DNA of 36,517 bases from a candidate division WOR-3 bacterium. GTDB lineage: Bacteria; Hydrothermota; Tepidihabitantia; SM23-42. Where the stretch lies: positions 1 to 36,517 of the forward strand of contig JAOUFJ010000026.1 of assembly GCA_029858255.1 (NCBI GenBank). The letters are read 5' to 3'. Under the pieces are notes generated by a model. It had not been told where the DNA came from, did no database searches, and worked only from the letters and a program-made list of their open reading frames with translations. Of this stretch, positions 11,309-28,578 are shown one piece after another. Each line of letters opens with the position of its first letter. The stretch's first letter is position 1. The translations under genes and the position numbers were made by a program.

Positions 11309-11388
11309 ACTAGGAGAAACGAAAGGCAGTTGTGCTATGTTTGTGAATTGCTCTTATTTATGTGTTATGTGCGATAGAAAGGTGCATT

Positions 11389-12780: not shown

Positions 12781-13015
12781 TCTTAAACACCCGCTAGATT
12801 CTACCCTTACTACAATCTGCATATTCATTTCATTCATGCATACTATTTACATGCATCAGTTGAAAGAAAATTCTATTAAATCACAGGATATTTTTACATA
12901 GGTGCATATTTTAGCTTTTCCTGACTAATTTGACTACAAGGGGCACGATGACGCGTAGGCTAATATTGGCGAGAATGGTCGAAAAATCGGACTAAATTAA
13001 CGTTTTAGATATCGT
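12781..13015 (+). promoter_or_regulatory. Intergenic region with repeated TGCAT motifs
   Basis: TGCAT occurs at 12818, 12837, 12852 and 12903. The central pair forms CATGCATA-CTATTT-ACATGCATC, a dyad at about 12835-12857. The same word flanks the start of the regulator gene (GTGCATTATGCATG near 11383-11395). These could be binding sites for the NtrC-type protein. No sigma-54 or N16 sigma-70 promoter is apparent here. The sequence GGGGCACGATGACGCG (12940-12955) has the GGCAC word but wrong spacing to GC. Confidence 0.25.
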
Positions 13016-14839
13016 GTGTTTTTTGGTGATGGGTCGGCACATATTTTGCTATTAGCAACTAATATGCGAACCGGAGACCGAAGGTCCTTACGCAGGCATG
13101 CACATATTGCCGTCATGGACAGCGATCGTGAATGCGTTGGGCTGCTGCTGAAGGAGTTGAGAAACTTGGGCTATAGAGCAGAGGCAGTCGAGCAGACCAA
13201 AACGTTGTTAAGGATGGTCAAAGATGATCTCATTGACGTCTTGATTCTCGCCGTTGATGCTTGGGGAGGTGGGCGTTTTGAGCTGATCCCTTTGATAAAG
13301 AGACTGAACAGATCGCTTCCTATTATTGTGACTTCTGGTGATGATTCATTGGAGACGGCCGGTAAGGTAAGGGAACAAGGTATCCTATTCTATGCAATCA
13401 AACCACTGGATATGCATGAGATTGAAATAGTTCTGAAGAAGGCATTAGCACGAGCGTCAATTTGTCAAAAGCCGATCACCCTGGTAAAACAAACACATGC
13501 AGGGAACGGACTCGAACATGACATTTTAAACATCAACGAAGCCAGTAAGATTCTGAAACTGAGCAGGAACACCTTAACAAAATTAGCCAAGCAAGGCGAC
13601 ATACCAGCATGCAGGATTGCGAACCGGTGGTACTTTATCAGGAATCAGATCTATGAATGGATGAGGATTAGGGCAGCTGGGAACCAATGTAATTATAGCA
13701 CACTGATCCTTGAAACAATGGATGAAGGGGTGGCGGTTGTTGACAGAAGACTCAGAATAATCAGCTGCAACAGTGCTTACCTCAAGGCACTGGATGTCCC
13801 CCGAGACCGTGTTATTGGGGAACCCTGCTACCGGGTCAGTCACCGCTCAGTCAGTCCCTGTGACGAGCCTATATGTCCTGTCCGGAAAGCCTTCAGAACG
13901 CAGCAGGCCGTAAAAGTCCTACATGTCAACTATGACAATGAAGGTAAGGAACGTTACTGTGATGTAGTTGCGCTGCCGATCAAGGATGCTAATGGCAAAA
14001 TCAATAGTGTGCTTGAGATTATTAGAGATAACACGGAAATATACAGCCTCAATAGACATCTCAATAGTGTAATGCGGTTTTTCGCACGCGAGTCAAAGGC
14101 GACGCTAGGTACAGTTATGATGAACATCAGTGCACTCGCTGATGAGAATTTGTCCACAGCAATTGAGAGACCAAAGCGGGATGAGATGCTCGCCAGTTCA
14201 TTATGCAACCTTAAGCTCATGCAAGACATGATAAGGAATTACATATTATCCTATCAAGCAGAAAACGGAAGACTGCAATGCAACAAGAGCATAGTTGATA
14301 TTGTTCATGACATAATTGAACCCGTCATATCCGAAACGATACCGTTTCTTCGCAAGAGGGCAATGTCAATCGACGCTGCTACTGGAAAGTTACGACCTGT
14401 CTTTTGTGACCTCGAACTCTTGAAGGTCGCATTCACTAATATGATTGCTGGTGTGGCGAAATATGCAATGAACACATCCAAGATTCGGTGTTCAACTGAA
14501 ACATATGAAGATTTAGATATTGTCGTGTCAGGTGTAGGTGTCTCAATCCCACATGAAAAATTTCAGGCTATTTCGGACGGCATTTTGGATGTCGAGCATA
14601 AGGAAATGAGCGATGCGGATATGGGACTGCACATCGCAAAAAGGATCGCTGAGATACATGGTGGTATGTTGAGCATTGAGACAGGATATATTATCGAAGA
14701 TAAACATGTCCCATTCGATGAATCTCGGCTGCATGACAGAAGTAACCTTTCAGGGAGAGTTAGTCAGACAGAATTTGTGAAATTTAGGTTGAGAATCCCA
14801 CATGTTGATGCACATTGGGAATACGGAGGTGACAAGTGA
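13016..14839 (+). CDS. Degenerate REC - helix-turn-helix - PAS - kinase-like regulator (probable pseudokinase)
   Basis: 607 aa from a GTG at 13016; an ATG at 13064 is an alternative and neither has a good ribosome site. The receiver-like domain (about 29-145) keeps the acidic pair, T106/S107 and K129, but Ala79 replaces the phosphoacceptor Asp. An excisionase-like helix-turn-helix follows (170-216, LNINEASKILKLSRNTLTKL). The PAS domain (228-340) has a C271/H276/C282/C287 set (GEPCYRVSHRSVSPCDEPIC). In the kinase-like region Arg358 stands where the phospho-His would be (FFARESKATLG), and the G1 box DxGxG is SGVGV. I infer a signalling protein that neither autophosphorylates nor is phosphorylated in the usual way. 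It could bind DNA or a partner in response to redox or metal state. It overlaps the next gene by 4 nt. Confidence 0.75.
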   Translation: MFFGDGSAHILLLATNMRTGDRRSLRRHAHIAVMDSDRECVGLLLKELRNLGYRAEAVEQTKTLLRMVKDDLIDVLILAVDAWGGGRFELIPLIKRLNRSLPIIVTSGDDSLETAGKVREQGILFYAIKPLDMHEIEIVLKKALARASICQKPITLVKQTHAGNGLEHDILNINEASKILKLSRNTLTKLAKQGDIPACRIANRWYFIRNQIYEWMRIRAAGNQCNYSTLILETMDEGVAVVDRRLRIISCNSAYLKALDVPRDRVIGEPCYRVSHRSVSPCDEPICPVRKAFRTQQAVKVLHVNYDNEGKERYCDVVALPIKDANGKINSVLEIIRDNTEIYSLNRHLNSVMRFFARESKATLGTVMMNISALADENLSTAIERPKRDEMLASSLCNLKLMQDMIRNYILSYQAENGRLQCNKSIVDIVHDIIEPVISETIPFLRKRAMSIDAATGKLRPVFCDLELLKVAFTNMIAGVAKYAMNTSKIRCSTETYEDLDIVVSGVGVSIPHEKFQAISDGILDVEHKEMSDADMGLHIAKRIAEIHGGMLSIETGYIIEDKHVPFDESRLHDRSNLSGRVSQTEFVKFRLRIPHVDAHWEYGGDK

Positions 14840-15228
14840 AGTCTAAGAGAGAAATTCTGATAGTGGACGATGATGTTGATTTCGTAGAGGCCACAAAAAT
14901 CGTTTTGGAGAAAAGTGGCTATCATGTTGAAACGTGCCTGTCTGCGGAGGCATGTCTTGAAAAATTGAAGACAATTGACCCCGATCTAATCATCATGGAC
15001 GTCATGATGGAAACCGATCATTCCGGATTTGACCTTTGCCGAGAAATCAAACGGAATTTGAAGACCAAAGATATCCCGGTTCTCATGTTGACCGCCGTGG
15101 AGGAGAAATATCCGATGAATTTTGAAAGTGCTGCCGGTGACGAAACCTGGCTGCCAGTTGACGGTTACATTGACAAACCAGTTGAGGCCGGTGTGCTGCT
15201 GGAACGTATTAATAAATTACTGAGTTAA
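14836..15228 (+). CDS. Single-domain response regulator receiver (CheY-like)
   Basis: 130 aa, one receiver domain: DDD at 11-13, phosphoacceptor D55 (LIIMDVMM), a Thr in PVLMLTAV and a Lys in YIDKPVE. An extra loop of about 15 residues ([17 protein letters not shown]) lies between the Thr and Lys segments. There is no output domain, so it must act through a partner. The GTG start overlaps the stop of the pseudokinase gene by 4 nt (GTGA), and the gene ends 10 nt before the redox genes begin. It is probably part of the same transcript. Confidence 0.85.
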
Positions 15229-15238
15229 ACCTGGCGTT

Positions 15239-16132
15239 ATGAGAGACAACGGTAAGACAGGCGCTACACTTGTGGTCGGTGGAGGCATAGGCGGTATCCA
15301 GGCTGCATTAGATCTTGCGGATTCTGGATTTAGAGTCTATCTGTTAGAGAAAAGCCCAAGCATTGGTGGCGTCATGGCTCAGTTGGATAAAACCTTTCCC
15401 ACTAATGATTGTTCAATGTGCATACTCGCGCCGAAACTGGTCACTGTTGCCAGGCATCCAAATATTACCGTCATTACCGATGGGGATATTGAGCAATTGT
15501 CCGGTGACGCGGGTGATTTCGTTGTTACGATAAGGAAAGAACCACGCTACGTTGATGAGGAGAAATGCACGGGGTGTGGACTCTGTATGCAGAACTGTCC
15601 CGTGCGCCAGATACTATATGATGAATCTCAACCCGAAGATCTGCGGCTTGATCCTGCTGAAGTCGCACAGATTGAGGCAATACTTCAGGATTACCGAGAT
15701 AGGAAAGGTGTTCTGATGCCCGTTCTTCAGGCCATCAATAATGCCTACAACTATTTTCCAAGAGAACTGCTTAAGTACATGGCACGTGAGCTGAAGATTC
15801 CACTGAGTTTGATCTACAACGTTGCTACGTTTTACAAGGCATTCAGCCTGAAAAAGCGGGGCAGGTATGTAATAAGAGTCTGCCAGGGAACGGCGTGCCA
15901 TGTTCGTGGTGCAAAGCGCGTCTTAGAGGAATTCGAACGTGTCCTGGGTATCGAGTCCGGTAATAATACGGATGATCTTCTGTTTACACTGGAAACTGTG
16001 AACTGCGTAGGTGCTTGTGCACTCGCACCAGTCATAATGGTCGGTGATGAGTATTTTGGTCAAATGACACCGGGAAAAGTGCAGACCGTCATTGACAAGT
16101 ATCACAAAGAAGGAAAAGGCTATGCCGAATAA
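15239..16132 (+). CDS. HdrA N-terminal half fused to NuoE-type [2Fe-2S] subunit
   Basis: 297 aa. Residues 1-123 equal the N-terminal part of HdrA: FAD loop GGGIGG 14-19, [24 protein letters not shown] (49-63) and the ferredoxin motif C110/C113/C116/C120. The HdrA sequence then stops and a full NuoE/HydC domain follows (about 135-290) with [2Fe-2S] ligands C215, C220, C256, C260. The missing remainder of this HdrA is found, fused to another domain, in the gene at 17984. Compared with the intact HdrA at 22132, the break lies just after CPV of the first ferredoxin. NuoE passes electrons from the NADH-oxidising NuoF. It lies 10 nt after the receiver gene and overlaps nuoF by 11 nt. Confidence 0.85.
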
Positions 16133-17987
16133 CAGCGCTGACAATTACATCACCGCTAAACAGTCATCATTGCGGGTAAAGCGATACTGCATTAGTATTT
16201 GCGGCGGTACAGGATGCCACGCGTACAAGTGTGAAAAGGTTAGTGAAGCGTTTGTTGAGGAAATAAAAAGAAGGCAGGTAGAAGCTGATATTGAAGTCAA
16301 GACCACGGGCTGTCACGGATTTTGTGAGAGGGGTCCGATTGTCGTCATATATCCTGATCACACTTTCTATCAGAGGGTAAAACCCGAGGACGCGTCACTT
16401 GTCATTGAAAGCCTTCTGAACGGCAAGAAAGTCGTCGAGCATTTGCTGTACGTTGATCCAATCACGCAAGAGAGGGTGACGAGTGTCGATGAAGTATCAT
16501 TCTATAAGAAGCAGTGCCGATTGATCCTTGGTAACAACGGTAAGGTGGATCCGGAGAAAATCGAGGATTACCTTGCCGTTGACGGCTATAATGCGCTCAG
16601 ATCGGTGCTGTTCGGCATGGCTCCAAAGGCTGTGGTTGATGAGATGAAGAAATCTGGCTTGCGTGGGCGTGGCGGTGCTGGTTTCTTAACCGGCCAGAAA
16701 TGGGAGATCTGCAGGCGCGCAGATGGTGAAACAAAGTATATCGTATGCAATGCTGATGAAGGTGATCCCGGCGCCTACATGGATCGAAGCGTCTTAGAAG
16801 GCAACCCCCATAGTGTATTAGAAGGAATGGCCATAGGTGCCTATGCAATCGGCGCAGAAGAAGGGATCGTCTACGTGCGTACCGAGTATCCTCTGGCAAT
16901 AAAGAATCTTCGGACGGCTATTAAACAGGCCCAGCAAGCCAATTTTCTTGGCGACGATATACTAGGTAGTGGATTCAACTTTTCGGTGCGGATATGTCAG
17001 GGCGCTGGTGCTTTTGTCTGTGGTGAAGAGACGGCTCTGATAGCGTCTATTGAAGGTGAACGTTCACCAGAACCCAGGGTCAGGCCGCCGTATCCTGCTG
17101 AAAGCGGTCTCTGGGGTCATCCGACGAATATCAACAATGTCGAAACGTGGGCTAGCGTGCCGCTTATCATCAACAGAGGGGCAGCGTGGTACGCTGCCAT
17201 CGGGACCGAGAAGAGCAAGGGTACTAAGATATTCTCATTGGTTGGAAAGGTGAATAATACCGGTCTGGTCGAAGTGCCGATGGGGATTGCACTACGGGAA
17301 ATCATTTATGATATAGGTGGGGGTATTCCACATAATAAGAAATTCAAGGCCGTGCAGACAGGGGGACCATCGGGTGGATGTGTTCCGGCGAGTCTTCTTG
17401 ATCTTCCCGTTGATTATGAAAGCCTGACCGCGGTTGGTTCAATGATGGGCTCGGGGGGAATGGTGGTCATGGATGAGGATACGTGCATGGTTGATGTGGC
17501 AAAATACTTCCTCAATTTTCTGAAGGACGAATCATGCGGCAAGTGCACTTCGTGCAGGGAGGGCATAGCGCAGATGTATGACATAGTTCTTCGCATAACC
17601 CAGGGCAAAGGTCAAGATGATGATATCGTGCTGCTCGAGAGTCTTGGCCAGATCGTCCAGGCCGCTTCGATGTGTGGGTTCGGTCAAACGGCTGCAAACC
17701 CAGTGGTATCAACGATAAGGTATTTCCGAGATGAATACAAGGCTCATATCCAAGAGAGACGCTGTCCGGCGTTGGTATGCAAGGATTTAATTTCTTACAC
17801 AATTGATCCAGAAAGATGCGGAGGCTGTGTGGTATGTGCAAAGGCTTGCCCGTGCGGGGCTATAATCGGGGAGCCGAAGAAAGTACACAAAATAGACCAG
17901 AAAAAATGCATAAAGTGCGGCATCTGCCATACCAGCTGTCCGCCCAAGTTTAGAGCCGTCAGCATCGTGTCACCGGTGATATCATGA
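16122..17987 (+). CDS. NuoF/HydB-type NAD(H)-binding flavoprotein
   Basis: 621 aa from ATG 16122 (the frame extends 5' but AAGGAAAAGG precedes this ATG). Domains: an N-terminal thioredoxin-like [2Fe-2S] domain (C27, C32, C64, C68), the NuoF core with GRGGAGF for [32 protein letters not shown] and the [4Fe-4S] site [11 protein letters not shown], then two C-terminal ferredoxin motifs ([24 protein letters not shown]). This layout matches HydB of bifurcating [FeFe]-hydrogenases and soluble NADH-oxidising modules. It should oxidise NADH or reduce NAD+ in the cytoplasm and exchange electrons with the fused NuoE and NuoG-like domains of its two neighbours. It overlaps both neighbouring genes, so expression is probably coupled. 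Confidence 0.9.
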
Positions 17988-20900
17988 AAAAACGCAGGAG
18001 CATAAAGAAGAAAATGGGAGATGGACTGCAGGATTCCAAGAAAGAAAGCGCGCTCGTTTCTTTGCTAATCGATGGTATTCCGGTGAAGGTGGAGCCAGGT
18101 ACGACGATACTTCAGGCCGCGAGTGCAGTCAATATCAAGATCCCAACACTCTGTTATCACGAAGCCCTAAGCCCCTATGGCGCCTGTCGGTTATGCGTCG
18201 TTGAAATCAAGAAAAATGGGTGGCGCAAAATCCAGGCCTCCTGTGTCTGCCGTGCTGAAGAGGGTTGCGAGGTACAAACGTCGACGCCCGAGTTGGATAA
18301 TATTCGAAGGATGATGATTGAACTCATCATGGCGCGTGCCCCTGAGTCCAAGAGAGTACAGGATATGGCAGAAAGGCTTGGTGTTAGTCAAACGCGTTTT
18401 ACGCCGAGAAATGATGACTGCATACTCTGCGGACTATGTGTGAGAATGTGCAGCGAGCGCATGGGGCAAAGTGTCATCGGATTTGCCGGTCGTGGCGACA
18501 AGCGAAAGATTTCAACGCCTTTTGATATTCAGTCAGAGAGATGCTTAGTGTGCGGAGCGTGTTTCTCTATTTGCCCCTGTGCCTCTGATAGTCTAAGGAA
18601 ATTGAGCAATAGACCGCCAAGGCCCTTGTATGATGAATTTGACCAGGGACTACGGCAAAGATCAGTGATCCGCATTCCTTTTCCACAAGCCGTGCCGAAC
18701 GCAGCGATCATTGACAAAGAGCACTGTGTACACTTCTTGGATGATAAGTGCAAGATTTGCCAGGATTTGTGCGAGGCGAAAGCGATCGACTTCGGGCAGG
18801 TGGACAAGCTGATTGATCTACGTGTGGGGTCGATCATAGTTTCCAGCGGTTCTGATGTACATAAAGGTAAGATGAAGCGCGAATTCGGTTATGGCAGGTA
18901 TGACAATGTCGTAACCTCCATTGAATTCGAGAGAATACTTTCCGCGTCAGGGCCATTCCACGGTCATGTTCTAAGACCTGGAGACAAGAAAGAGCCTAGA
19001 CGAATTGCCTTTGTGCAGTGTGTAGGTTCGAGGGACGAGGCGCATGACTACTGTTCGTCTGTATGTTGCATGTATGCTACAAAAGAAGCGATCATTGCCA
19101 AAGAGCATGCACCTCACCTTGATTGCACGATATTCTGCATGGATATCAGGGCATTCGGCAAAGGGTTTGATGAATACTATGAGAAGGCGATGAAGAGTGG
19201 TATTCGTTACATACACTGCCGACCTGCATCAATTGATGAAGTGCCCGGTACCAAGAATATAATTATCAAATACTCTGATGAGTGTGAAAAAACCGTGCTT
19301 AAAGAGTACGACTTAGTTGTTTTGTCATGTGGCTTGGAACCATCGCGGTACTTAGCGAATTTGGCCGAACGACTTGATATTAGCGTGAACAAGAGAGGTT
19401 TTTTTAAGACCGCTACATTCAGTCCGGTGGAATCGAGCAGGGAAGGCATATTTGTCTGCGGACCGTGCACCGAGCCTAAAGATATACCGGAGACCGTCAC
19501 TCAATCTTCGGCCGCTGCGGCAAAAGCAATGGAATTATTGAAGGACGTGCGCGGCACGATGATAACGGCGAAGCAGTATCCGCCCGAGTTGCCAGTGCAT
19601 GATCAGGAGCCAAGGATCGGGGTTTTTGTTTGTCACTGCGGTATAAACATCGGCGGTTATGTTGATGTGCCACAGGTCTTGGAGTACACGAGGAGCCTGT
19701 CTAAGGTTGTTTATGCTGAAAGCAATCTCTATACATGTTCTCAGGATAGTCAGAAAAGAATGATCGAGTTGATTGGGCAACACAAGCTCAATCGTATTGT
19801 CGTTGCTTCCTGCACGCCCCGAACGCACGAGCCGCTCTTCCGCGAAACCGTGCGGGAGGCAGGTCTAAATCCGTATCTTTTTGAGATGGCAAACATTCGT
19901 GATCAGTGTTCGTGGATTCATATGAACGACCCACTGGCTGCTACCCGGAAAGCCAAGGATCTCGTCAGGATGGCAGTTGCCAAAGCGGGTGCGCTTGCCG
20001 CGCTTAAGCGCGTTGAGATCAAAGTTATACAGAAGGCGCTGGTAATAGGCGGCGGGGTCGCCGGGATGGCTGCAAGTTTATCTCTGGCAAGGCAAGGATT
20101 CGAGGTTATCTTGGTTGAAAAGGAACATGAACTCGGCGGCAACACCAGGCACATCTATTATACGATTGAGGAAAACGGTGTTCAGGATTTTCTCAAGAAA
20201 ATGGTAAAGGAAGTCTATGAAAATGATTCGATCAGGGTGTACACAAAAGCAAATGTGGAATCGGTTTCCGGTTTTGTTGGCAATTATGTCAGTGAGATCA
20301 TTGTCGAAAATGGGTCAAGAGTAATATGCGAACACGGTGTAATTATCGTAGCAACCGGCGCACAGGAATTTACGCCAGATGAGTATCTATATGGACAGGA
20401 CGATAGAGTCGTTACGCAACGCGAATTGGAGGAAATGATCGCTGATCGTGATCCTGCTATGTCGGAGGTCAAATCTGTTGTGATGATACAATGTGTTGGG
20501 TCAAGGGACGATGCTCATCTCTATTGCAGTAGAAGGTGTTGTTCGCAGGCTATGAAGAACTCACTGAGACTTCTTGAGATGAATCCGAATGTCAAGATCT
20601 ATGTTTTGTACCGCGATGTGAGGACGTATGGTTTCAAAGAGGAATTCTATACGGAGGCGCGCGAAAAAGGCGTTTTGTTCATACGTTTCGATAGTTCCAA
20701 TCGACCTGCGGTTCATGGCAATAATGGGTCTTTGAAAGTTGTGGCATTTGAATCCCTGATGCAAAGGAATATTGAAATCAAACCCGACCTTCTTGTGTTG
20801 TCGGCGGGTATCGTTCCGAACACAGATAACAAACGAATTGCGAAAATGCTCAAAGTACCACTGAATAGTGACGGTTACTTTCTCGAAGCGCACGTCAAAT

Positions 20901-21286
20901 TAAGACCGGTAGATTTCGCCACCGAAGGCGTTTTCGTTGCCGGTCTCGCCCATAGTCCTAAGTTCATCATTGAGGCAATAGCTCAAGCAGAGGCTTCAGC
21001 AGCGCGAGCCGCAACGATCCTTGCAAATGACAAGTACTACGCTGAAGCGACGATCTCACACGTTAACGAGGAACTCTGCGTTGGCTGCGGATTGTGCAGC
21101 AACCTGTGTCCATATGAAGCAATTGAGATCAAAGTGAAGGAAGGGAAACGTGTCTCAGAAGTCAACGAGGCTCTGTGCAAAGGCTGTGGTACATGCGTCG
21201 CCGCCTGCGCTTCCGGGGCGATGGATCAATATGGATTTACGAAAAGGCAGATACTGGGCATGATCAGTACACTAAGGGAGTGGTAA
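17984..21286 (+). CDS. NuoG/HydA-type ferredoxin domain fused to the C-terminal part of HdrA
   Basis: 1100 aa. Residues 22-205 match the N-terminus of NuoG/HydA: [2Fe-2S] ligands C57, C68, C71, C87, then [4Fe-4S] motifs C146/149/152/156 and C187/190/193/197; the His-ligated cluster motif is absent. From about 215 (YDEFDQGLRQRSVIRIPFPQ) it aligns with residues 139 onward of the intact HdrA, including C248/C256/C259/C263, the second half of the first FAD domain, the CHCG Cys-rich module near 550, a full second FAD domain (ALVIGGGVAGMAASLSLARQ) and two C-terminal ferredoxin motifs. The first FAD domain lacks its own GxGxxG, which is on the gene at 15239. No H-cluster or molybdopterin domain is present. 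The two proteins probably assemble one HdrA-like flavin site. Confidence 0.85.
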   Translation: MKKRRSIKKKMGDGLQDSKKESALVSLLIDGIPVKVEPGTTILQAASAVNIKIPTLCYHEALSPYGACRLCVVEIKKNGWRKIQASCVCRAEEGCEVQTSTPELDNIRRMMIELIMARAPESKRVQDMAERLGVSQTRFTPRNDDCILCGLCVRMCSERMGQSVIGFAGRGDKRKISTPFDIQSERCLVCGACFSICPCASDSLRKLSNRPPRPLYDEFDQGLRQRSVIRIPFPQAVPNAAIIDKEHCVHFLDDKCKICQDLCEAKAIDFGQVDKLIDLRVGSIIVSSGSDVHKGKMKREFGYGRYDNVVTSIEFERILSASGPFHGHVLRPGDKKEPRRIAFVQCVGSRDEAHDYCSSVCCMYATKEAIIAKEHAPHLDCTIFCMDIRAFGKGFDEYYEKAMKSGIRYIHCRPASIDEVPGTKNIIIKYSDECEKTVLKEYDLVVLSCGLEPSRYLANLAERLDISVNKRGFFKTATFSPVESSREGIFVCGPCTEPKDIPETVTQSSAAAAKAMELLKDVRGTMITAKQYPPELPVHDQEPRIGVFVCHCGINIGGYVDVPQVLEYTRSLSKVVYAESNLYTCSQDSQKRMIELIGQHKLNRIVVASCTPRTHEPLFRETVREAGLNPYLFEMANIRDQCSWIHMNDPLAATRKAKDLVRMAVAKAGALAALKRVEIKVIQKALVIGGGVAGMAASLSLARQGFEVILVEKEHELGGNTRHIYYTIEENGVQDFLKKMVKEVYENDSIRVYTKANVESVSGFVGNYVSEIIVENGSRVICEHGVIIVATGAQEFTPDEYLYGQDDRVVTQRELEEMIADRDPAMSEVKSVVMIQCVGSRDDAHLYCSRRCCSQAMKNSLRLLEMNPNVKIYVLYRDVRTYGFKEEFYTEAREKGVLFIRFDSSNRPAVHGNNGSLKVVAFESLMQRNIEIKPDLLVLSAGIVPNTDNKRIAKMLKVPLNSDGYFLEAHVKLRPVDFATEGVFVAGLAHSPKFIIEAIAQAEASAARAATILANDKYYAEATISHVNEELCVGCGLCSNLCPYEAIEIKVKEGKRVSEVNEALCKGCGTCVAACASGAMDQYGFTKRQILGMISTLREW

Positions 21287-21702
21287 TGGAAGATTTTCAA
21301 CCGAAGATAATAATATTCTGCTGTAACTGGTGTTCGTACGCCGGTGCCGATCTGGCAGGCGTTTCACGTTTACAGATTGACCCTAACTTTCGGGTAATAA
21401 GGACAATGTGCTCAGGGCGAATTGAACCGGAGTTCATTTTGAGCGCGTTTGAAAAAGGAGCCGATGGTGTTATGATAACAGGCTGTCATCCTGGAGATTG
21501 TCACTATATTAACGGTAATTACAAAACACTCAGAAGGTATCATTTCATGAAAGTGCTTCTGGAAGAATTGGGTATCGATACAAGACGCATTGGATTGAAG
21601 TTCATCTCGGCAGGTGAAGGCATTGAATTTCAGAAGACGGTCAATAATTTTGTTGACCAGGTGAGGCAATTAGGCCCGAATCATTATGGACATAAGGAGT
21701 AG
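21286..21702 (+). CDS. mvhD: MvhD-type [2Fe-2S] electron-transfer subunit (copy 1)
   Basis: 138 aa from ATG 21286, preceded by AAGGGAG and overlapping the previous stop by 1 nt. MvhD signature: CCNWCSYAGADLAGVSR, then MCSGR, then GCHPGDCHYINGNY, supplying the cysteines of its [2Fe-2S] cluster. MvhD links an electron donor module to HdrA in heterodisulfide reductase complexes. It is clearly paralogous to the copy at 25246. Its place directly after the split-HdrA gene suggests that each HdrA has its own MvhD. Confidence 0.9.
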   Translation: MEDFQPKIIIFCCNWCSYAGADLAGVSRLQIDPNFRVIRTMCSGRIEPEFILSAFEKGADGVMITGCHPGDCHYINGNYKTLRRYHFMKVLLEELGIDTRRIGLKFISAGEGIEFQKTVNNFVDQVRQLGPNHYGHKE

Positions 21703-21706
21703 TACC

Positions 21707-22135
21707 ATGAGCGAAGAACAGGTCATAAATGTTAGTGAGCTGGATGCGAAATTCGCCGATGAGGTCATTTCGTACCCAGGTGGCGAGCATCTAAGGAAAT
21801 GCTTCGCCTGCGGGACGTGCACAGCAGGGTGTCCGGTCAGCGAGATCGATGAGAACTACAGTCCGAGGCGTTTAATACGTCAGATTTTGTTCGGTATGCG
21901 TAAAGAAGTGTTGACTTCCCCTGCAATCTGGTACTGCCTCGTCTGTTATCGGTGCTTTGCTCATTGTCCTCAGAACGTCAACTTCCCAGATTTGATGCAG
22001 GTGCTTCGTTACATCGCCATTCGAGAAAAATATGCGGCACCGGATATTGTCGAACGGATAAGTGAGATTGACAAACGTGTGCAGATATTACGGCATGACT
22101 TAATAAAATATGATGTTACAAAACAAGAGCATTGA
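21707..22135 (+). CDS. hdrC: HdrC-type bis-[4Fe-4S] subunit
   Basis: 142 aa from ATG 21707, with AAGGAG 8 nt upstream. Two [4Fe-4S] motifs are visible: CFACGTCTAGCPVSE and CLVCYRCFAHCPQNV, in the helical scaffold typical of HdrC (YSPRRLIRQILFGMRKEVLT, then a C-terminal helix). HdrC normally carries electrons from HdrA to HdrB, which holds the heterodisulfide-cleaving CCG clusters. No HdrB is encoded anywhere in the window, so its partner here is unknown. It sits between the two HdrA systems. Confidence 0.85.
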   Translation: MSEEQVINVSELDAKFADEVISYPGGEHLRKCFACGTCTAGCPVSEIDENYSPRRLIRQILFGMRKEVLTSPAIWYCLVCYRCFAHCPQNVNFPDLMQVLRYIAIREKYAAPDIVERISEIDKRVQILRHDLIKYDVTKQEH

Positions 22136-25100
22136 TTTTGGATCGTTTTTATATGGGTGATCATGAGAGAATTATGAACACGAACGATATCCACAAGAAG
22201 GCAATGGTGATTGGTGGTGGGATTGCGGGCGTGCAGGCAGCCTTGGATCTGGCAGATTCTGGAGTCGAGGTATTTCTCGTGGAACGGGCCCCGAGTATTG
22301 GAGGCCGAATGGCTCAGCTTGACAAGACATTCCCCACTAATGACTGCTCGCTATGTATTCTATCGCCCAAACTTGTGGAAGCTGCAAATCATCCGAACAT
22401 TAATATTATCACCAATGCGGAAGTCGAAAGAGTCGAGGGTTTTGCGCCGCGTTTTGCGGTCAAGGTACGCAAGAAGCCGCGCTATGTCGATGAAGAGAAG
22501 TGTACCGGTTGTGGTATCTGTATGACAAAATGTCCAGTTAAGATACCGGATGATTTTAATGTGGGTTTGTGCGATACACGGTGTATACGTATTCCATTTC
22601 CTCAGGCAGTACCAGCAGTGGCGATTATCGATAGTGCACACTGTATATATTTCAGGCGTGGTAAGTGCCGCATATGTGAGAGGTTTTGTGAACCACAGGC
22701 CATAGATTTCAATCAGAAAGAAGAGTTGATTGACATCGAAGTAGGGAGTATCATCGTTGCCGCCGGGTTGACAGAATTCAGTGCAGTTTCAAAGGACGAA
22801 TACGGTTACAAGATATTTCCCAATGTGATCACCAGTATGGAGTTTGAGCGCATACTTAGCGCCTCTGGTCCAACGCAGGGCCATGTGCTCAGACCTTCGG
22901 ATAGGAAAGAACCAAGGAAAATCGCCTTCCTCCAGTGTGTCGGGTCGCGTGATTCGACAACCGGCAATGAATATTGTTCGGCTATCTGTTGCATGCAAGC
23001 AGCCAAAGATGCAATAATAATCACCGAGCATCTTCAGAATGTAGAAATCTCCGTCTTTGGTATGGATGTAAGGGCGTACGGTAAGAATTTCGACAAATTC
23101 ATCGAGCGTGCGCAAACCGAACACGGAACTAAATTTGTCAGGGCTCGTGTCGCATCAGTCGATATCAATCCGACAAATGACAATCTAATTCTACATTACG
23201 AGGCTGACGGGCATACGAGAAAAGAAGAATTCGAATTGCTCATACTTTCCGTTGGCCTCAAAGCTTCGCCTTATCTGAGGTGTCTTGCGATGCTGCTCGA
23301 TGTCCGTTTGGACGATCTGGGATTCGTCCAGACAACAACATTCACACCAGTTGCGACGTCGCGGCCCGGCATATTTGTCTGTGGTAGCATTTCAGGTCCG
23401 AAAGATATACCCGAATCTGTCATTGAGGCAAGCGGTGCAGCTTCATCGGCCGGTGCGGTGCTGAAGGAATTTCCCCGAAGGGCCATTGTCGTTGAACATC
23501 CGACTGAAGTTCCGGTAGACGATGGAGATCGACCCAGGATAGGTGTTTTTGTCTGTCGTTGTGGGATCAATATTGCCGCGTCAGTTGATGTTGCGAAAGT
23601 TGTCGAGCATGCAGCCAGCCAGCCGTATGTTGTCTACAGTCAGGAACTCATGTTTGCATGTTCGCAGGATTCACAGAAGTTGATTAACGATAAGATACAG
23701 GAGATGGGGATCAATCGTGTCGTAGTAGCGGCATGCACGCCGCGGACCCATGAACCGCTCTTTCAGAATACACTTCAGAATTCTGGGCTGAATCCGTACC
23801 TGTTCGAATTCGCTAATATCCGCGAGCAGTGCTCATGGGTTCACCAGAAAGAGCCGGGAAAAGCAACGGAAAAAGCCAAGGACCTTGTTGAAATGTCAAT
23901 TCGCAAGGCTGCCTACCTTGAGTCCCTGAGCAAGACGAAATTGAGTGTAAACAAGAACGTGCTGGTTATTGGGGGCGGGTTAGCAGGCATGAGTGCAGCA
24001 TTGGATCTCGCACACCAGGATTTTCATGTTGACCTCATTGAGAAGGATGATCAACTGGGTGGTAATCTACGGCGTCTGCATTATACCCTGGATGGCTACG
24101 AGACGAGCACGTTTCGCGAACATCTTATAGATCAGGTTCAAACACATCCGTTGATCAACGTGCATAAGAATGCGGAAATCGAGTCGATAACTGGCTTCAT
24201 TGGAAACTATAGAACTGCGATCAAACATGGCAATGGCAGGAACATCGGATTTAGCAGTACAGGTATTTACGAAGAACGTGCGGAAATCAACCATGGCGTA
24301 GTGATCGTTGCCTCCGGTGCCAATGAGTCCAAACCGAATGAATATCTTTACGGCAAGGATGAGCACGTGATTACGCAGCGCGAATTAGAGGAAAGAATAG
24401 CAGCCGCTGAACCTTCCTTACAGGATCTTAATTCAGTTGTCATGATCCAGTGTGTCGGTTCGCGCAATGAGAGGAACCCGTATTGCAGTAGGGTTTGTTG
24501 CAGTACTGCGATAAAGAACGCAATAAGATTGAAGCAATTGAACCCACTTGTGCGTGTTTATGTCGTGTACAGGGATGTGAGGACATACGGGTTAAAAGAG
24601 ATGTACTATAAAAAAGCACGTGAGGCAGGTATTATTTTCATCCAGTATGATGAAGGCTCAGAACCTGTGGTAGATAAGGTCGATTCGCATTTGTCCGTTT
24701 GCGTGACTGAAAAGATAATCAACAAAACACTGAGGTTTATCCCTGACCTCATTGTTCTGAGCAACGGGATAGTACCGAGTGAAGGCAACAAGGTATTATC
24801 GCAAGCCCTGAAAGTCCCTTTGGGTACGGATGGCTTTTTCCTTGAAGCACACGTAAAGCTGCGACCGGTTGATTTTGCTACAGACGGGGTTTTTGTCTGC
24901 GGGCTTGCACACTATCCAAAAGACATCAGTGAGACAATTGCACAGGCAAAGGCGTCAGCGTCAAGGGCAATAACCATCCTGAGTAAGGATGAGATCGAAT
25001 CAGAAGCAAAGGTGGCATACGTTCACGAGAGCCGCTGTAACGGGTGCGGTCTGTGTGCTGAAATTTGCGCTTACAAGGCATTGGAGATAGATCCGGAAAG

Positions 25101-25245
25101 ACAAGTTGCGGTTTTGAATTCAGCATTGTGTAAAGGGTGTGGTACCTGCGCTGCTTCCTGTCGATCGTGCGCGATTGATATCAGAGGATTTAGAGATGAA
25201 CAGGTACTGGCAGCATTGGACGTGCTGCGTTGGGATAAGAAGTAA
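22132..25245 (+). CDS. hdrA: Intact two-module HdrA flavoprotein
   Basis: 1037 aa if started at the TTG at 22132 (overlaps hdrC by 4 nt); ATG at 22153 or 22174 are alternatives, all before the FAD loop. Module 1: GGGIAG 28-33, [15 protein letters not shown], ferredoxin C124/C127/C130/C134, RIPFPQAVP 153-161 and C171/C179/C182/C186. A middle Cys-rich segment (GVFVCRCGINIAASVDV) precedes module 2 with a second FAD loop (VIGGGLAGMSAALDLAHQ). It ends with two ferredoxin motifs (CNGCGLCAEIC, CKGCGTCAASC). HdrA carries the FAD that bifurcates electrons between a high- and a low-potential acceptor. It is the unsplit paralogue of 15239+17984 and shows where that one is broken. Confidence 0.9.
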   Translation: MILDRFYMGDHERIMNTNDIHKKAMVIGGGIAGVQAALDLADSGVEVFLVERAPSIGGRMAQLDKTFPTNDCSLCILSPKLVEAANHPNINIITNAEVERVEGFAPRFAVKVRKKPRYVDEEKCTGCGICMTKCPVKIPDDFNVGLCDTRCIRIPFPQAVPAVAIIDSAHCIYFRRGKCRICERFCEPQAIDFNQKEELIDIEVGSIIVAAGLTEFSAVSKDEYGYKIFPNVITSMEFERILSASGPTQGHVLRPSDRKEPRKIAFLQCVGSRDSTTGNEYCSAICCMQAAKDAIIITEHLQNVEISVFGMDVRAYGKNFDKFIERAQTEHGTKFVRARVASVDINPTNDNLILHYEADGHTRKEEFELLILSVGLKASPYLRCLAMLLDVRLDDLGFVQTTTFTPVATSRPGIFVCGSISGPKDIPESVIEASGAASSAGAVLKEFPRRAIVVEHPTEVPVDDGDRPRIGVFVCRCGINIAASVDVAKVVEHAASQPYVVYSQELMFACSQDSQKLINDKIQEMGINRVVVAACTPRTHEPLFQNTLQNSGLNPYLFEFANIREQCSWVHQKEPGKATEKAKDLVEMSIRKAAYLESLSKTKLSVNKNVLVIGGGLAGMSAALDLAHQDFHVDLIEKDDQLGGNLRRLHYTLDGYETSTFREHLIDQVQTHPLINVHKNAEIESITGFIGNYRTAIKHGNGRNIGFSSTGIYEERAEINHGVVIVASGANESKPNEYLYGKDEHVITQRELEERIAAAEPSLQDLNSVVMIQCVGSRNERNPYCSRVCCSTAIKNAIRLKQLNPLVRVYVVYRDVRTYGLKEMYYKKAREAGIIFIQYDEGSEPVVDKVDSHLSVCVTEKIINKTLRFIPDLIVLSNGIVPSEGNKVLSQALKVPLGTDGFFLEAHVKLRPVDFATDGVFVCGLAHYPKDISETIAQAKASASRAITILSKDEIESEAKVAYVHESRCNGCGLCAEICAYKALEIDPERQVAVLNSALCKGCGTCAASCRSCAIDIRGFRDEQVLAALDVLRWDKK

Positions 25246-25725
25246 ATGAAGCCTAAGAGTAATAAGGGGAACGAGTTGGGAAAAGACCAATCTTTTGAAC
25301 CGAAGATTGTGGCGTTCTTATGCAATTGGTGTTCGTATGCCGGTGCGGATCTTGCCGGGGTAAGCAGATTCCAGTACCCTACCAACATTCGGATTATCAA
25401 AGTGCCGTGTTCGGGCCGGATCAATCCTCTTTACATAGTGAAAGCACTTTACAACGGCGTCGATGGAGTCCTGGTCTCTGGCTGCCATCCCGGAGACTGC
25501 CACTATATTAGTGGCAACTACTTTGCCCGGAGAAAATTCGCTCTCGTCAAGAAGTTCTTGGAATACGTCGGGATAGAGCCGGAGAGGGTTCAGTTTTCGT
25601 GGATTTCGGCAGCAGAAGGGGTAAGGTTTGCACAGATAATCGACAAGGTAACTAATGATATAAGGAAACTGGGGCCTCTTACATACTTCCGCAGAGGTTC
25701 TGCCAGAACAGGGGATTCAACATGA
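25246..25725 (+). CDS. flxD: MvhD/FlxD-type [2Fe-2S] subunit (copy 2)
   Basis: 159 aa. The ATG directly follows the hdrA stop codon. It has the same signature as copy 1 (LCNWCSYAGADLAGVSR, PCSGR, GCHPGDCHYISGNY), plus an N-terminal extension of about 18 polar residues and a C-terminal tail. Because flxC, flxB and flxA homologues follow, it is the natural FlxD, linking the NAD(P)H-oxidising Flx module to HdrA. It overlaps flxC by 4 nt (ATGA). Confidence 0.85.
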   Translation: MKPKSNKGNELGKDQSFEPKIVAFLCNWCSYAGADLAGVSRFQYPTNIRIIKVPCSGRINPLYIVKALYNGVDGVLVSGCHPGDCHYISGNYFARRKFALVKKFLEYVGIEPERVQFSWISAAEGVRFAQIIDKVTNDIRKLGPLTYFRRGSARTGDST

Positions 25726-26699
25726 AACGAGTCGAGTCCGAACTAATTGAAAACGTAGAAGAACTTCTGAGGGAGAAGAAAGTAGATCTCTTTATAGGTT
25801 ATGAGAGTGGTTCTCTGCCGCTTCAGACGTCTCCATGCTTTGTCACACAGCAGGAAGATGTACAAAAGTTGGTATGGAACAGCTTTTGCGCGAACAATCT
25901 TTCAGTATACCTGAGCTCGCTCATGCGGGAACTGCCAGCAAGTACTAAGGTCGGCATTCTCTGCAAGGGTTGTGATAGCCGTTCTCTTGTCAACCTCATT
26001 GTTGAAAAACAGGTGAAAAGGGAAGATGTGGTAATAGTGGGGATATCATGCCCGGGTATCGTAAATATCGACAAAATAACTAACAAATTGGATGGCCGGA
26101 AGGTATTAGAGGTTGAGGAAAACGATGAAGAAATTATTCTGAAATATGATGTTGGCGAGGATCGATTCAGCAGAATGGATAATTTGTACGAATCCTGCAA
26201 GAATTGCGTTCACCCGACACCGAGCGTATACGATGTTCTCATTCGCGTCGGTGAACACTCGCCAAAATCAGTAACTCCTGATCCAATGATCGCTGAATTC
26301 AGTCAGAAAAGTCGGACAGAGCGGTGGCAGATATTCGAGCAGGAGTTGTCGCGTTGTGTTAGATGCTATGCATGCCGGAATGCGTGCCCAAACTGCTACT
26401 GCAAAGAGTGCTTTGCCGAGCAGACCAAACCGCGCTGGTTCGGTTTGACAAATGAGTTGTCCGATGTGTTATTCTACCATATAGTAAGAATACTTCATCA
26501 GGCAGGAAGATGCGTTGATTGCGGTGCATGCGCGCGAGCCTGCCCCGAAAAAATAAATCTAAGGTTGTTCACGCGCGTGCTGGTTGATGAAGTCAGGGAA
26601 CGGTTTGATTACGTACCCGGGCTTTCCCCAAACGATTCACCGCTACTGGCGATGTTCTCCAACGATGACAGCCAAGAATTCATGGTTGAAGCCGATTAA
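25722..26699 (+). CDS. FlxC-like iron-sulfur protein
   Basis: 325 aa. The N-terminal half (about 1-190) resembles FrhB-type hydrogenase/dehydrogenase subunits (KVGILCKGCDSRSL, VIVGISCPGIVN, and YESCKNCVHPTP). The C-terminal half has two ferredoxin motifs: CVRCYACRNACPNCYCKECF and CVDCGACARACPEKI. In Desulfovibrio the FlxABCD-HdrABC system is a soluble NADH dehydrogenase linked to Hdr, and this gene fits the Fe-S subunit next to FlxD. It relays electrons and no separate catalytic site is obvious. The start is ATGA-coupled to the preceding gene. The FlxC name is by position and general likeness. Confidence 0.65.
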   Translation: MKRVESELIENVEELLREKKVDLFIGYESGSLPLQTSPCFVTQQEDVQKLVWNSFCANNLSVYLSSLMRELPASTKVGILCKGCDSRSLVNLIVEKQVKREDVVIVGISCPGIVNIDKITNKLDGRKVLEVEENDEEIILKYDVGEDRFSRMDNLYESCKNCVHPTPSVYDVLIRVGEHSPKSVTPDPMIAEFSQKSRTERWQIFEQELSRCVRCYACRNACPNCYCKECFAEQTKPRWFGLTNELSDVLFYHIVRILHQAGRCVDCGACARACPEKINLRLFTRVLVDEVRERFDYVPGLSPNDSPLLAMFSNDDSQEFMVEAD

Positions 26700-26710
26700 T
26701 GGAGAGAGAT

Positions 26711-27742
26711 ATGACTAAAGAATTTGTTGTCCATAAAGATGATTTCAACGAATTCCTGACGCTGTTGATTAAAGTATATACTGTATTTGGCCCAACAGGT
26801 GATGATGGTTCTAATGGGATCAAGAGGATTGAAAGACCAGAGCAGTTCAAGTTGCATCATGGCACGAGTCATTTTTCGTTCAAGCATTTCTTCTTGCCGC
26901 AGACCGAGAAGCTGTTTTCCTTTGATCTGGCATCTAATAAGGTTGATGCCCCAAGCGAAGAGCAAGGTGATGACAAATATTCTATCCTTATCGGTTTGAG
27001 GCCATGCGATGCAAAGGCCGTTGAACTTCTTGACCAAGTTTTTATTGAGCGTGATCCAAAAGATATTTTCTATGCAAAGCGAAGGAATAAAACCAGGATC
27101 GTGTCGTTTGCCTGCCGCGAGCCTCGTTCAACTTGTTTCTGCGGATCAGTAGGATGCGGGCCGGATTCTGAAGCTGGCGCCGACGTGGTAATATACGAGC
27201 TGAAAGACCGTTACGTTATGAAAGCGATTACCGGGGGAGGCGACGAGTTGTTGAACAGCGCCAACATATATTTGAACGCCGTTTCGAAGGAAGACCTTGC
27301 TGAAAAAGAGAAGACGATGATTGAGGCTAAGAACCACTTGGTGAACGTCTTCACGAGCGATGGTTTGGATGGGAAAATTAGCGATTTCGATGCCTCCTAC
27401 TGGAAACGGATTTGTCAGAAATGCCTCGGTTGTGGTATTTGTACTTACTTCTGCCCGACTTGTCACTGTTTCGACATCATTGACGAAGTGGATGGTTCCA
27501 AAGGAAGACGAATACGCTCATGGGATTCATGTATGTATCCGCTCTTCACCTTGCATGCATCAGGGCATAACCCCCGACCCACTCGCAAGGAAAGAATGAG
27601 ACAGCGAATCATGCATAAATTTGTCTATAGCATGGAACAGTACGGGAGAAGATTCTGTGTTGGATGCGGCCGGTGCGTTACTCATTGTCCAGTCAATCTC
27701 GATTTGCGCTTCGTCATCAAGGAAATCGTGGAGGCAAAATGA
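26711..27742 (+). CDS. FlxB-like / sulfhydrogenase beta-type Fe-S protein
   Basis: 343 aa from the ATG at 26711, which has GGAGAGAG upstream; an ATG at 26699 overlapping the previous stop would add four residues. It belongs to the family of AsrA and sulfhydrogenase beta subunits: ILIGLRPCDAKAVELLDQVF, FACREPRSTCFCGSVGCGP, then two [4Fe-4S] sites CQKCLGCGICTYFCPTCHC and CVGCGRCVTHCPV. Members pass electrons between the FAD/NAD(P) subunit (here the next gene) and a catalytic partner. No hydrogenase or sulfite reductase gene is present, so the Flx role is preferred. It overlaps flxA by 4 nt. Confidence 0.75.
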   Translation: MTKEFVVHKDDFNEFLTLLIKVYTVFGPTGDDGSNGIKRIERPEQFKLHHGTSHFSFKHFFLPQTEKLFSFDLASNKVDAPSEEQGDDKYSILIGLRPCDAKAVELLDQVFIERDPKDIFYAKRRNKTRIVSFACREPRSTCFCGSVGCGPDSEAGADVVIYELKDRYVMKAITGGGDELLNSANIYLNAVSKEDLAEKEKTMIEAKNHLVNVFTSDGLDGKISDFDASYWKRICQKCLGCGICTYFCPTCHCFDIIDEVDGSKGRRIRSWDSCMYPLFTLHASGHNPRPTRKERMRQRIMHKFVYSMEQYGRRFCVGCGRCVTHCPVNLDLRFVIKEIVEAK

Positions 27743-28578
27743 ACAACCCCTATATTCCAATGCCGACGAGAATCGAAAGAATCACAACTGAAAATGAAGC
27801 ACGTGATATAAAGACATTCGACCTCTCTTTCGTCAATAACGAAGACAGAGATAGTTTCTTGTTTCTTCCCGGACAGTTTGCAGAACTATCGTTGCTCGGT
27901 TTTGGAGAATGCCCTATTGGTATTGCTTCTTCTCCCACTGAGGTCGGTCATCTATTGTTTACCGTGAAGAGAACTGGTTTTGTGACCAAACACTTGCATC
28001 GCGCAGAGGTGGGTGATACCATAGGAATTCGAGGTCCCTTCGGGAATAGTTATCCACTGGATCTGATGGAAGGCAAAAACGTGCTGATTATCGGAGGTGG
28101 ATTCGCATTTACAACTCTTCGCGCTACCGCAATGTATATGCTTGAAGGCAGCAATCGCGCTCGGTTCAAGGAGTTGACGATTGTCTATGGCGCACGTAGT
28201 CCCGGCGAATTGATTTACAAACAAGAACTATGGGATTGGGAGAAATCGACTGACTTGAATATGTTCATTACGGTAGATAAAGGCGATGAAACATGGAAAA
28301 GACGCGAGGGCTTTGTACCGACCGTCCTCGAGGAGATAGCACCTAGTTCTCAGGATACGGTTGCTTTGGTATGTGGTCCACCCGTCATGATAAAATTCAC
28401 GCTGCCAGTTCTTCAGAAACTGGGGTTCCCTCCGGACCGCATCTTTCTGTCTCTTGAAATGCGCATGAAATGCGGCATCGGTAAATGTGGTCGCTGCAAT
28501 ATAGGGCACAAGTATGTGTGCGTGGATGGTCCGGTCTTCTCTTGTGCGCATCTGGGCGAATTACCGCAGGAATATTGA
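27739..28578 (+). CDS. flxA: FlxA-like FAD/NAD(P)-binding subunit
   Basis: 279 aa from ATG 27739 (ATGA overlap with the previous stop). It is a ferredoxin-NADP reductase fold: FAD domain (about 1-105, LPGQFAELSLLGFGECPIGI), NAD(P) domain with VLIIGGGFAFTTLRA near 115-130 and CGPPVMIKF, and a C-terminal [2Fe-2S] site (MKCGIGKCGRCNIG, then CVDGPVFSC). This is the PyrK/sulfhydrogenase-gamma/FlxA family. It should exchange hydride with NAD(H) or NADP(H) and pass electrons to the Fe-S subunits encoded upstream. It is the last gene of the redox cluster, and no clear terminator follows within the 117-nt gap. Confidence 0.8.
   Translation: MNNPYIPMPTRIERITTENEARDIKTFDLSFVNNEDRDSFLFLPGQFAELSLLGFGECPIGIASSPTEVGHLLFTVKRTGFVTKHLHRAEVGDTIGIRGPFGNSYPLDLMEGKNVLIIGGGFAFTTLRATAMYMLEGSNRARFKELTIVYGARSPGELIYKQELWDWEKSTDLNMFITVDKGDETWKRREGFVPTVLEEIAPSSQDTVALVCGPPVMIKFTLPVLQKLGFPPDRIFLSLEMRMKCGIGKCGRCNIGHKYVCVDGPVFSCAHLGELPQEY

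Follow-up and report, generated by a model that had tools for sequence, protein, structure and literature searches.

HdrA is normally a single protein. In type III HdrA, a nicotinamide-handling module, GltD, lies in frame and in one chain within the ferredoxin inserted in HdrA; nine such archaeal insertions, from two events, have been reported, and NADH use via this ferredoxin was proposed (PMC12054007). The Bam-Bfu complex of class II benzoyl-CoA reductase (BamGHI and HdrA) also brings a Bfu core and HdrA together, and two-stage bifurcation was proposed for it with subunits that are described, in the excerpts available of PMC9304861, as separate, with no fusion or split. Double HdrAs (type II; HdrA3/4 of anaerobic methanotrophic archaea, ANME) have two flavin adenine dinucleotide (FAD) domains per unit and are single chains (PMC9012536, PMC12054007). 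The HydC/HydB-like NuoE and NuoF subunits and the N-terminal domain of NuoG (NuoG-N) described below have their closest counterparts among HydABC, NiFe-HydABCSL and the tungsten aldehyde oxidoreductase Bfu enzymes, and an intact HdrA is part of HdrABC-MvhADG and FlxABCD-HdrABC.

Here we describe a locus on a 36,517-nucleotide contig (JAOUFJ010000026.1, C26; hereafter the window, meaning this whole stretch) from the genome of a candidate division WOR-3 bacterium of the Hydrothermota (GCA_029858255.1; 2.72 Mb, 82 contigs). The original prediction, made by a model from the letters of the window, described an HdrA in two fused halves with nuoF between them, and the open reading frames with their Pfam and PDB matches bear this out: chain 1 joins the N-terminal half of the first HdrA FAD domain (FAD1) to NuoE, and chain 2 joins NuoG-N to the remainder of a double HdrA (Table 1). 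Whereas type III HdrA holds GltD in one chain, this chain pair has no GltD and instead has a three-gene Bfu cassette with HdrA in two chains; the Bfu core and HdrA, separate in Bam-Bfu, are fused here; and HdrA replaces the third-substrate part of the HydABC-like enzymes. If its two pieces were joined, the split protein would hold two FAD domains in one unit like the double HdrAs, which are single chains. HdrC, MvhD and Flx-like genes stand alongside, as in HdrABC-MvhADG and FlxABCD-HdrABC, but HdrA is intact in those systems, and no HdrB match to a probe from a relative (L009) was detected in the window at E<=1e-5. We found no description of the split form in the open-licence PMC literature searched. 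The split form is real, conserved and widespread, and is a variant of known HdrA and Bfu enzymes, not a new kind of enzyme. At a probability of roughly 0.65, we read the locus as a HydCBA ('BfuCBA') cassette placed in hdrA, with FAD1 and its ferredoxin probably completed in trans to give a hard-wired Bfu-HdrA enzyme.

Division of HdrA and nature of the inserted module

The HdrA piece of chain 1 aligns to residues 141-258 of M. thermolithotrophicus HdrA (5odc_A) and chain 2 picks up HdrA at about residue 260; with 8rvu as reference, the two matches join at 270/271. Against the intact HdrA of the window, the HdrA part of chain 1 stops after '...CPV' and chain 2 takes up at 'YDEFDQGLRQRSVIRIPFPQA'. 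The two pieces therefore meet with almost no loss, as had been predicted, given their complementary coverage of a solved HdrA and this alignment. The intact comparator is itself a double HdrA with two FAD domains, a point that the original prediction had missed, and only the first is split in the fused genes. The break falls between the two cysteine motifs of the 2[4Fe-4S] ferredoxin inserted in FAD1, so that FAD1 is spread over two chains rather than held on one polypeptide, with FAD2 whole on chain 2. Chain 1 has the HdrA-type Rossmann start (GxGxxG), TNDCxxC and the first ferredoxin motif as its one Fer4 motif, up to residue 124, followed by 2Fe-2S_thioredx (NuoE) at residues 145-288 (Pfam, E 7e-49). 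Fer2_4 opens chain 2, with HdrA after it (Pfam, PDB). The pair together has the FAD Rossmann start and the eight ferredoxin cysteines of HdrA, and G14, G16 and G19 are invariant in 17 chain 1 sequences. Judged from these alignments, FAD1 and its ferredoxin could be completed only by two chains, which upholds the claim that the first FAD domain needs two polypeptides.

The module between the two pieces is more than an NADH oxidase. The best PDB match of the window NuoF is 7t2r_B (814 bits, query 20-607 of 621), and NuoE and NuoF are HydC/HydB-like (7t2r, 8a6t). A plain NADH dehydrogenase was rejected, since NuoF is HydB-like over its whole length. The predicted place of nuoF between the halves thus stands, although its product is a full bifurcating-type HydB, and the predicted hard-wired NADH-HdrA bifurcating enzyme has to be restated: the cassette is fused into HdrA, but the module is of the HydBC/'Bfu' type and is expected to bifurcate itself and to use ferredoxin. 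Clusters B2-B5 were described as unique to bifurcating hydrogenases among the enzymes compared in PMC8880783; the window NuoF carries the B1-B5 cluster motifs, as does not every relative. A pattern census of 34 split NuoFs found B1 in 34, CPA in 32, the N-terminal Cys pair in 29 and the C-terminal dicluster in 24. The 2Fe-2S cysteines of NuoE (C215, C220, C256, C260) are invariant in 13 and in 17 sequences. In NuoG-N, the 2Fe-2S cysteines are present together with two 4Fe-4S motifs. Of the NuoG-type chains, 9mqx_A matches it best, by title an electron-bifurcating tungsten aldehyde oxidoreductase.

CBS and PHP genes accompany hydABC operons. Genes of these kinds also lie between nuoF and nuoG in the seven split-locus gaps that were inspected (CBS in 7/7, PHP in 6/7; read from translations, with Pfam for L152 and L061 only), and they look as if a whole operon had been inserted. 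The claim of a nuoE-nuoF-nuoG cassette inside an hdrA frame is supported. As a separate observation, a GltD-like domain replaces the C-terminal ferredoxin of NuoF/HydB in L009 (6572-9784; Fer4_20 and Pyr_redox_2 by Pfam), L065, L073, L144, L145, L146, L149 and L156, and this NuoF-GltD form is also present in non-split loci.

Occurrence, selection and history

The genome search that the original prediction had proposed, for NuoE with an HdrA N-terminus beside its partner, showed that the arrangement recurs in its phylum and in named records from about ten bacterial phyla. Within the order, 10 of 27 genomes had the chain 1 fusion; in the class 12 of 65 did, and in the phylum at least 22 of 147, a lower bound with at most 16 candidates scored per genome. 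The phylum count excludes a twenty-third match, G136, which arose only via a GltD-inserted HdrA. Chain 1 matches were partial in G078 and G079, the latter with a stop, and partner chain 2 was present in 21 of the 22 genomes. The genome of the window holds a second, diverged copy on contig C9 (chain 1 55% identical), where HdrC- and HdrB-like genes lie upstream of it and NuoF is fused to GltD. Among named records, where the best 80 of at least 584 candidates were scanned (79 loci), chain 1 was found in 17 loci, whose record titles include ten named phyla or candidate divisions of bacteria: Stahlbacteria, Cloacimonadota, Fibrobacterota, Spirochaetales, Gemmatimonadales, Candidatus Sulfotelmatobacter (Acidobacteriota), Planctomycetota, KSB1, Zixibacteria and TA06. 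Two carriers from records titled archaea (L063, L066) were not counted as archaea because archaeal L15e was found in neither genome (control positive in four archaea); their labels may be wrong or the genomes incomplete, and their rows were retained in the trees and the topology test below. A scan of the phylum of G157 (four genomes, one match) was not used for a rate.

The split loci examined (n = 36) comprised 22 double HdrAs (class A), nine single HdrAs whose N-domain is carried by chain 1 (class B) and five without a partner in the stretch; L151 was counted as class A, its class B label having arisen only from a contig end. Of the 43 columns that are at least 95% conserved among unsplit HdrAs, 42 (15/15 and 27/28) show an unchanged residue in 90% or more of the split HdrAs, and site entropies of split and unsplit HdrA correlate at 0.88 and 0.90. 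The ratio of nonsynonymous to synonymous substitution rates (dN/dS) between the window and L139 was 0.04-0.10 over seven segments, with dS near 1, and remained below 0.2 in all comparisons with unsaturated dS. By these conserved columns, entropies and ratios, the split pieces evolve like a working HdrA, and the comparison supports purifying selection on the split arrangement. All this bears on whether misassembly or decaying genes could have produced the pattern. The 17 named records are by title metagenome-assembled, single-cell or uncultured assemblies, and L140 is broken at a scaffold gap, but misassembly was rejected because both junctions recur in many independent assemblies and a second copy is present in the same genome; the low dN/dS argues against decay, and we give this explanation next to no credence.

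Two trees were built after removal of identical rows, one of the FAD1 halves (123 rows, quick LG+G4) and one of the remaining 880 residues (79 rows). Starred branches force 8 of the 9 changes that class A requires on the first tree and 3 of the 4 that class B requires; on the second tree, class A requires 11, of which 8 are forced. An approximately unbiased (AU) test, which left out 16 of 43 unsplit double-HdrA rows (the long branches L111 and L115 and 14 from one large clade), rejected a single clade of the 20 class A rows (p-AU 8.9e-54), while a single clade was not rejected for the ten rows that belong to the order of the window (p-AU 0.26). By both HdrA trees and this test, the split state changed repeatedly; the trees fit repeated insertion and cassette transfer by recombination alike. 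One origin of the split, followed by spread with its flanks through recombination between hdrA copies, would explain why double and single HdrAs are broken at positions no more than a few residues apart, and agrees with the result for the window's order; the rejection of one clade for all split double HdrAs and the 8 changes forced on each tree speak against it. We consider the single origin conceivable, at somewhat less than even odds. On the NuoF tree, 8 changes are needed to place the split rows among the others, and support is modest.

The proposed enzyme and its alternatives

On the preferred reading, an electron-bifurcating HydCBA cassette would have entered the inserted ferredoxin of HdrA, in the loop that separates its two cluster motifs. 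The first cassette gene would be fused in frame to the 5' part of HdrA, and the last, truncated behind its Fe-S domains, to the 3' part. A single FAD domain and a single 2[4Fe-4S] ferredoxin would then be made up in trans by chains 1 and 2 together. In such ferredoxins, one motif normally supplies three ligands of a given cluster and the second motif the fourth. Since the motifs share ligands in this 3+1 manner, each chain should contribute ligands to both clusters. At this cross-chain ferredoxin the Fe-S chain of NuoG-N would directly terminate, and the NAD(H)/ferredoxin module would meet FAD1 via HdrA's former ferredoxin (low-potential) port. Electrons could run reversibly from flavin mononucleotide (FMN) through the NuoG-N clusters and the cross-chain ferredoxin to FAD1, and from there to the N-domain and FAD2 and then to the HdrC, MvhD and Flx partners. 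We infer this trans assembly and electron route, and with them a reversible NADH/ferredoxin-linked (tandem) bifurcation. If true, bifurcating cores of two kinds, HydB-type FMN and HdrA-type FAD, would be physically interlocked, and two fused subunits would by gene design share one enzyme domain, Fe-S clusters included. The tandem Bfu-HdrA bifurcation proposed for Bam would also become testable with a defined three-gene unit, and the arrangement would offer a rule for interpreting hdrA/nuo clusters of uncultured anaerobes.

All 29 alignable split pairs (the 36 loci minus the five without partner and minus L151 and L153, whose chain 2 is truncated) have the eight ferredoxin cysteines, C58/C61, E356 and K409 (5odc numbering) across the two chains; E356 and K409 were proposed as marks of bifurcating HdrA (PMC12054007). 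Cys197 of one HdrA was described as a ligand of its partner's N-domain cluster (PMC9012536) and, by the PDB alignment, would map to chain 1 C61, making a further cross-chain ligand, if the numbering is identical. These residues bear on two other readings. In the first, the HdrA fragments are docking adaptors: the last 4Fe-4S motif of NuoG would pair in cis with the second HdrA motif, and the chain 1 piece would dock NuoE on another HdrA. The last NuoG motif, CxxCGACxxxCP, does occupy the place of the first HdrA motif in chain 2, and an intact double HdrA is encoded next door. However, NuoG-N already has its own two 4Fe-4S motifs, the first ferredoxin motif and C58/C61 on chain 1 and E356/K409 on chain 2 are kept in every pair, and single HdrAs are cut at the same place, all of which makes docking quite improbable. 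In the second, FAD1 is assembled in trans but only conducts electrons from the Bfu module on to FAD2 and the Hdr/Flx partners, with all bifurcation at the FMN site of Bfu. In favour of this, the window encodes a complete Bfu core and FAD2 is whole; an inserted module may also obstruct the ferredoxin port, an argument made for type III HdrA (PMC12054007). The retention of E356 and K409 in all FAD1 pairs argues against it, and we think it unlikely, if less so than docking.

In single-chain AlphaFold2 (AF2) models, NuoE, the N-domain and FAD2 mostly had a predicted local distance difference test score (pLDDT) above 70. Scores below 50 were found in chain 1 at 102-128 (the orphan half-ferredoxin) and in the FAD loop at 42-58, and in chain 2 at 143-268 with short breaks, a range that includes NuoG's own dicluster. 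Low values at the half-ferredoxins are as expected if a partner chain is needed. The VIA-align comparison mainly covered FAD2 and NuoE and barely covered the FAD1 halves.

Several observations weigh against trans completion in a hard-wired Bfu-HdrA enzyme. The low pLDDT may stem only from 17-row alignments and missing clusters. The C-terminal dicluster is missing in 10 of the 34 split NuoFs, with GltD in its place in 8, and NuoF-tree support for repeated capture is weak. L069 (8557-11705, class B) has the two fusions side by side with no nuoF between. Chain 1 occurs without chain 2 in G124 (search at E<=1e-80) and with chain 2 on a separate contig in G131; in G010 (L140), chain 2 lies elsewhere and the NuoF next to chain 1 is broken at a scaffold gap. 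G010, although listed as one contig, holds unread stretches and is therefore a scaffold. Finally, the lack of an HdrB match in the window, within the probe search given above, concerns the high-potential acceptor.

GltD insertions and neighbouring genes

GltD inside a one-chain HdrA was found at 23 further loci: 18 double HdrAs, three single with the N-domain first and two (L082, L100) incomplete or unclear. These HdrAs are mostly double and about 1,500 residues long, come from several bacterial phyla and from records titled archaea, and extend past the nine published archaeal type III sequences. The Bfu cut lies right after 'CPV', and GltD enters approximately 30-35 residues later, ahead of the second motif in the same loop; a shared insertion residue was rejected given this distance. 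Derivation of GltD-inserted HdrAs by deletion from NuoF-GltD forms was not favoured, the two GltD sets being nearly apart. Split and GltD forms interleave on both HdrA trees, where the split L145 groups with the GltD-bearing L143 and L157 (support 95 and 94). Tentatively, the inserted ferredoxin of HdrA may be a general socket for nicotinamide enzymes, taking GltD in cis and Bfu by splitting, the latter giving a tandem FMN and FAD bifurcating machine with a ferredoxin whose two clusters are each ligated by two chains. Several relatives also show HdrA matches of about 800 codons that contain one in-frame TGA each, possibly a selenocysteine HdrA.

Table 1. Coordinates of the split hdrA locus in the window, with examples from relatives
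Feature	Position	Strand	Evidence
Chain 1: HdrA FAD1 N-terminal half + NuoE/HydC 2Fe-2S subunit	15239..16132	+	Pfam, PDB 5odc_A and HydC chains, alignments, AF2 model
Chain 1 HdrA portion, residues about 1-125	15239..15613	+	PDB match, alignment to intact HdrA
Chain 1 NuoE/HydC portion, residues about 141-292, Cys215/220/256/260	15659..16114	+	Pfam, alignments
NuoF/HydB (BfuB): N-terminal 2Fe-2S, FMN/NADH domain, B1 and CPAxxC motifs, C-terminal 2[4Fe-4S]	16122..17987	+	Pfam, PDB, motif patterns
Chain 2: NuoG/HydA N-terminal domain (2Fe-2S, two 4Fe-4S motifs) + remaining double HdrA	17984..21286	+	Pfam, PDB, AF2 model
Chain 2 NuoG-N (BfuA-like) portion, residues about 20-213	18041..18622	+	PDB alignment, cysteine alignment
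HdrA FAD1 C-terminal half: second ferredoxin motif C248, C256, C259, C263; E316 (=E356), K367 (=K409)	18623..19663	+	PDB alignment, alignments
HdrA N-domain, complete FAD2 domain, C-terminal ferredoxin	19664..21286	+	PDB alignment, VIA-align
MvhD/FlpD, likely ATG 21286 (start chosen by us)	21286..21702	+	PF02662
HdrC-like dicluster protein	21686..22135	+	Fer4 families; HdrC name inferred from cluster context
Intact double HdrA (comparator of the original prediction)	22132..25245	+	Pfam
Second MvhD/FlpD	25246..25725	+	PF02662
Flx-like genes C, B, A: Fer4_8 protein; Fer4_22 protein; NAD_binding_1 with DHODB_Fe-S_bind	25722..28578	+	Domains; Flx names inferred
GltD-inserted HdrAs, examples	L143:7826-12409; L157:5728-10269; L158:9408-13880; and 20 other loci
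CBS (with HATPase in L061) and PHP-domain genes between nuoF and nuoG	L061:3884-6192; L152:10326-12411; similar gaps

The fusion genes through the Flx-like genes form a single co-directional run with overlapping gene ends, the NuoF ATG overlapping the end of the chain 1 gene, and the window contains no N letters. General domain scans found no BamB tungsten subunit among the window proteins, and no genome search was aimed at BamB. Directly upstream of chain 1 (11362-15228) lie genes for a sigma-54 response regulator, a PAS/HTH/response-regulator protein and a single response regulator; response regulators apparently also lie upstream of the second copy on contig C9.

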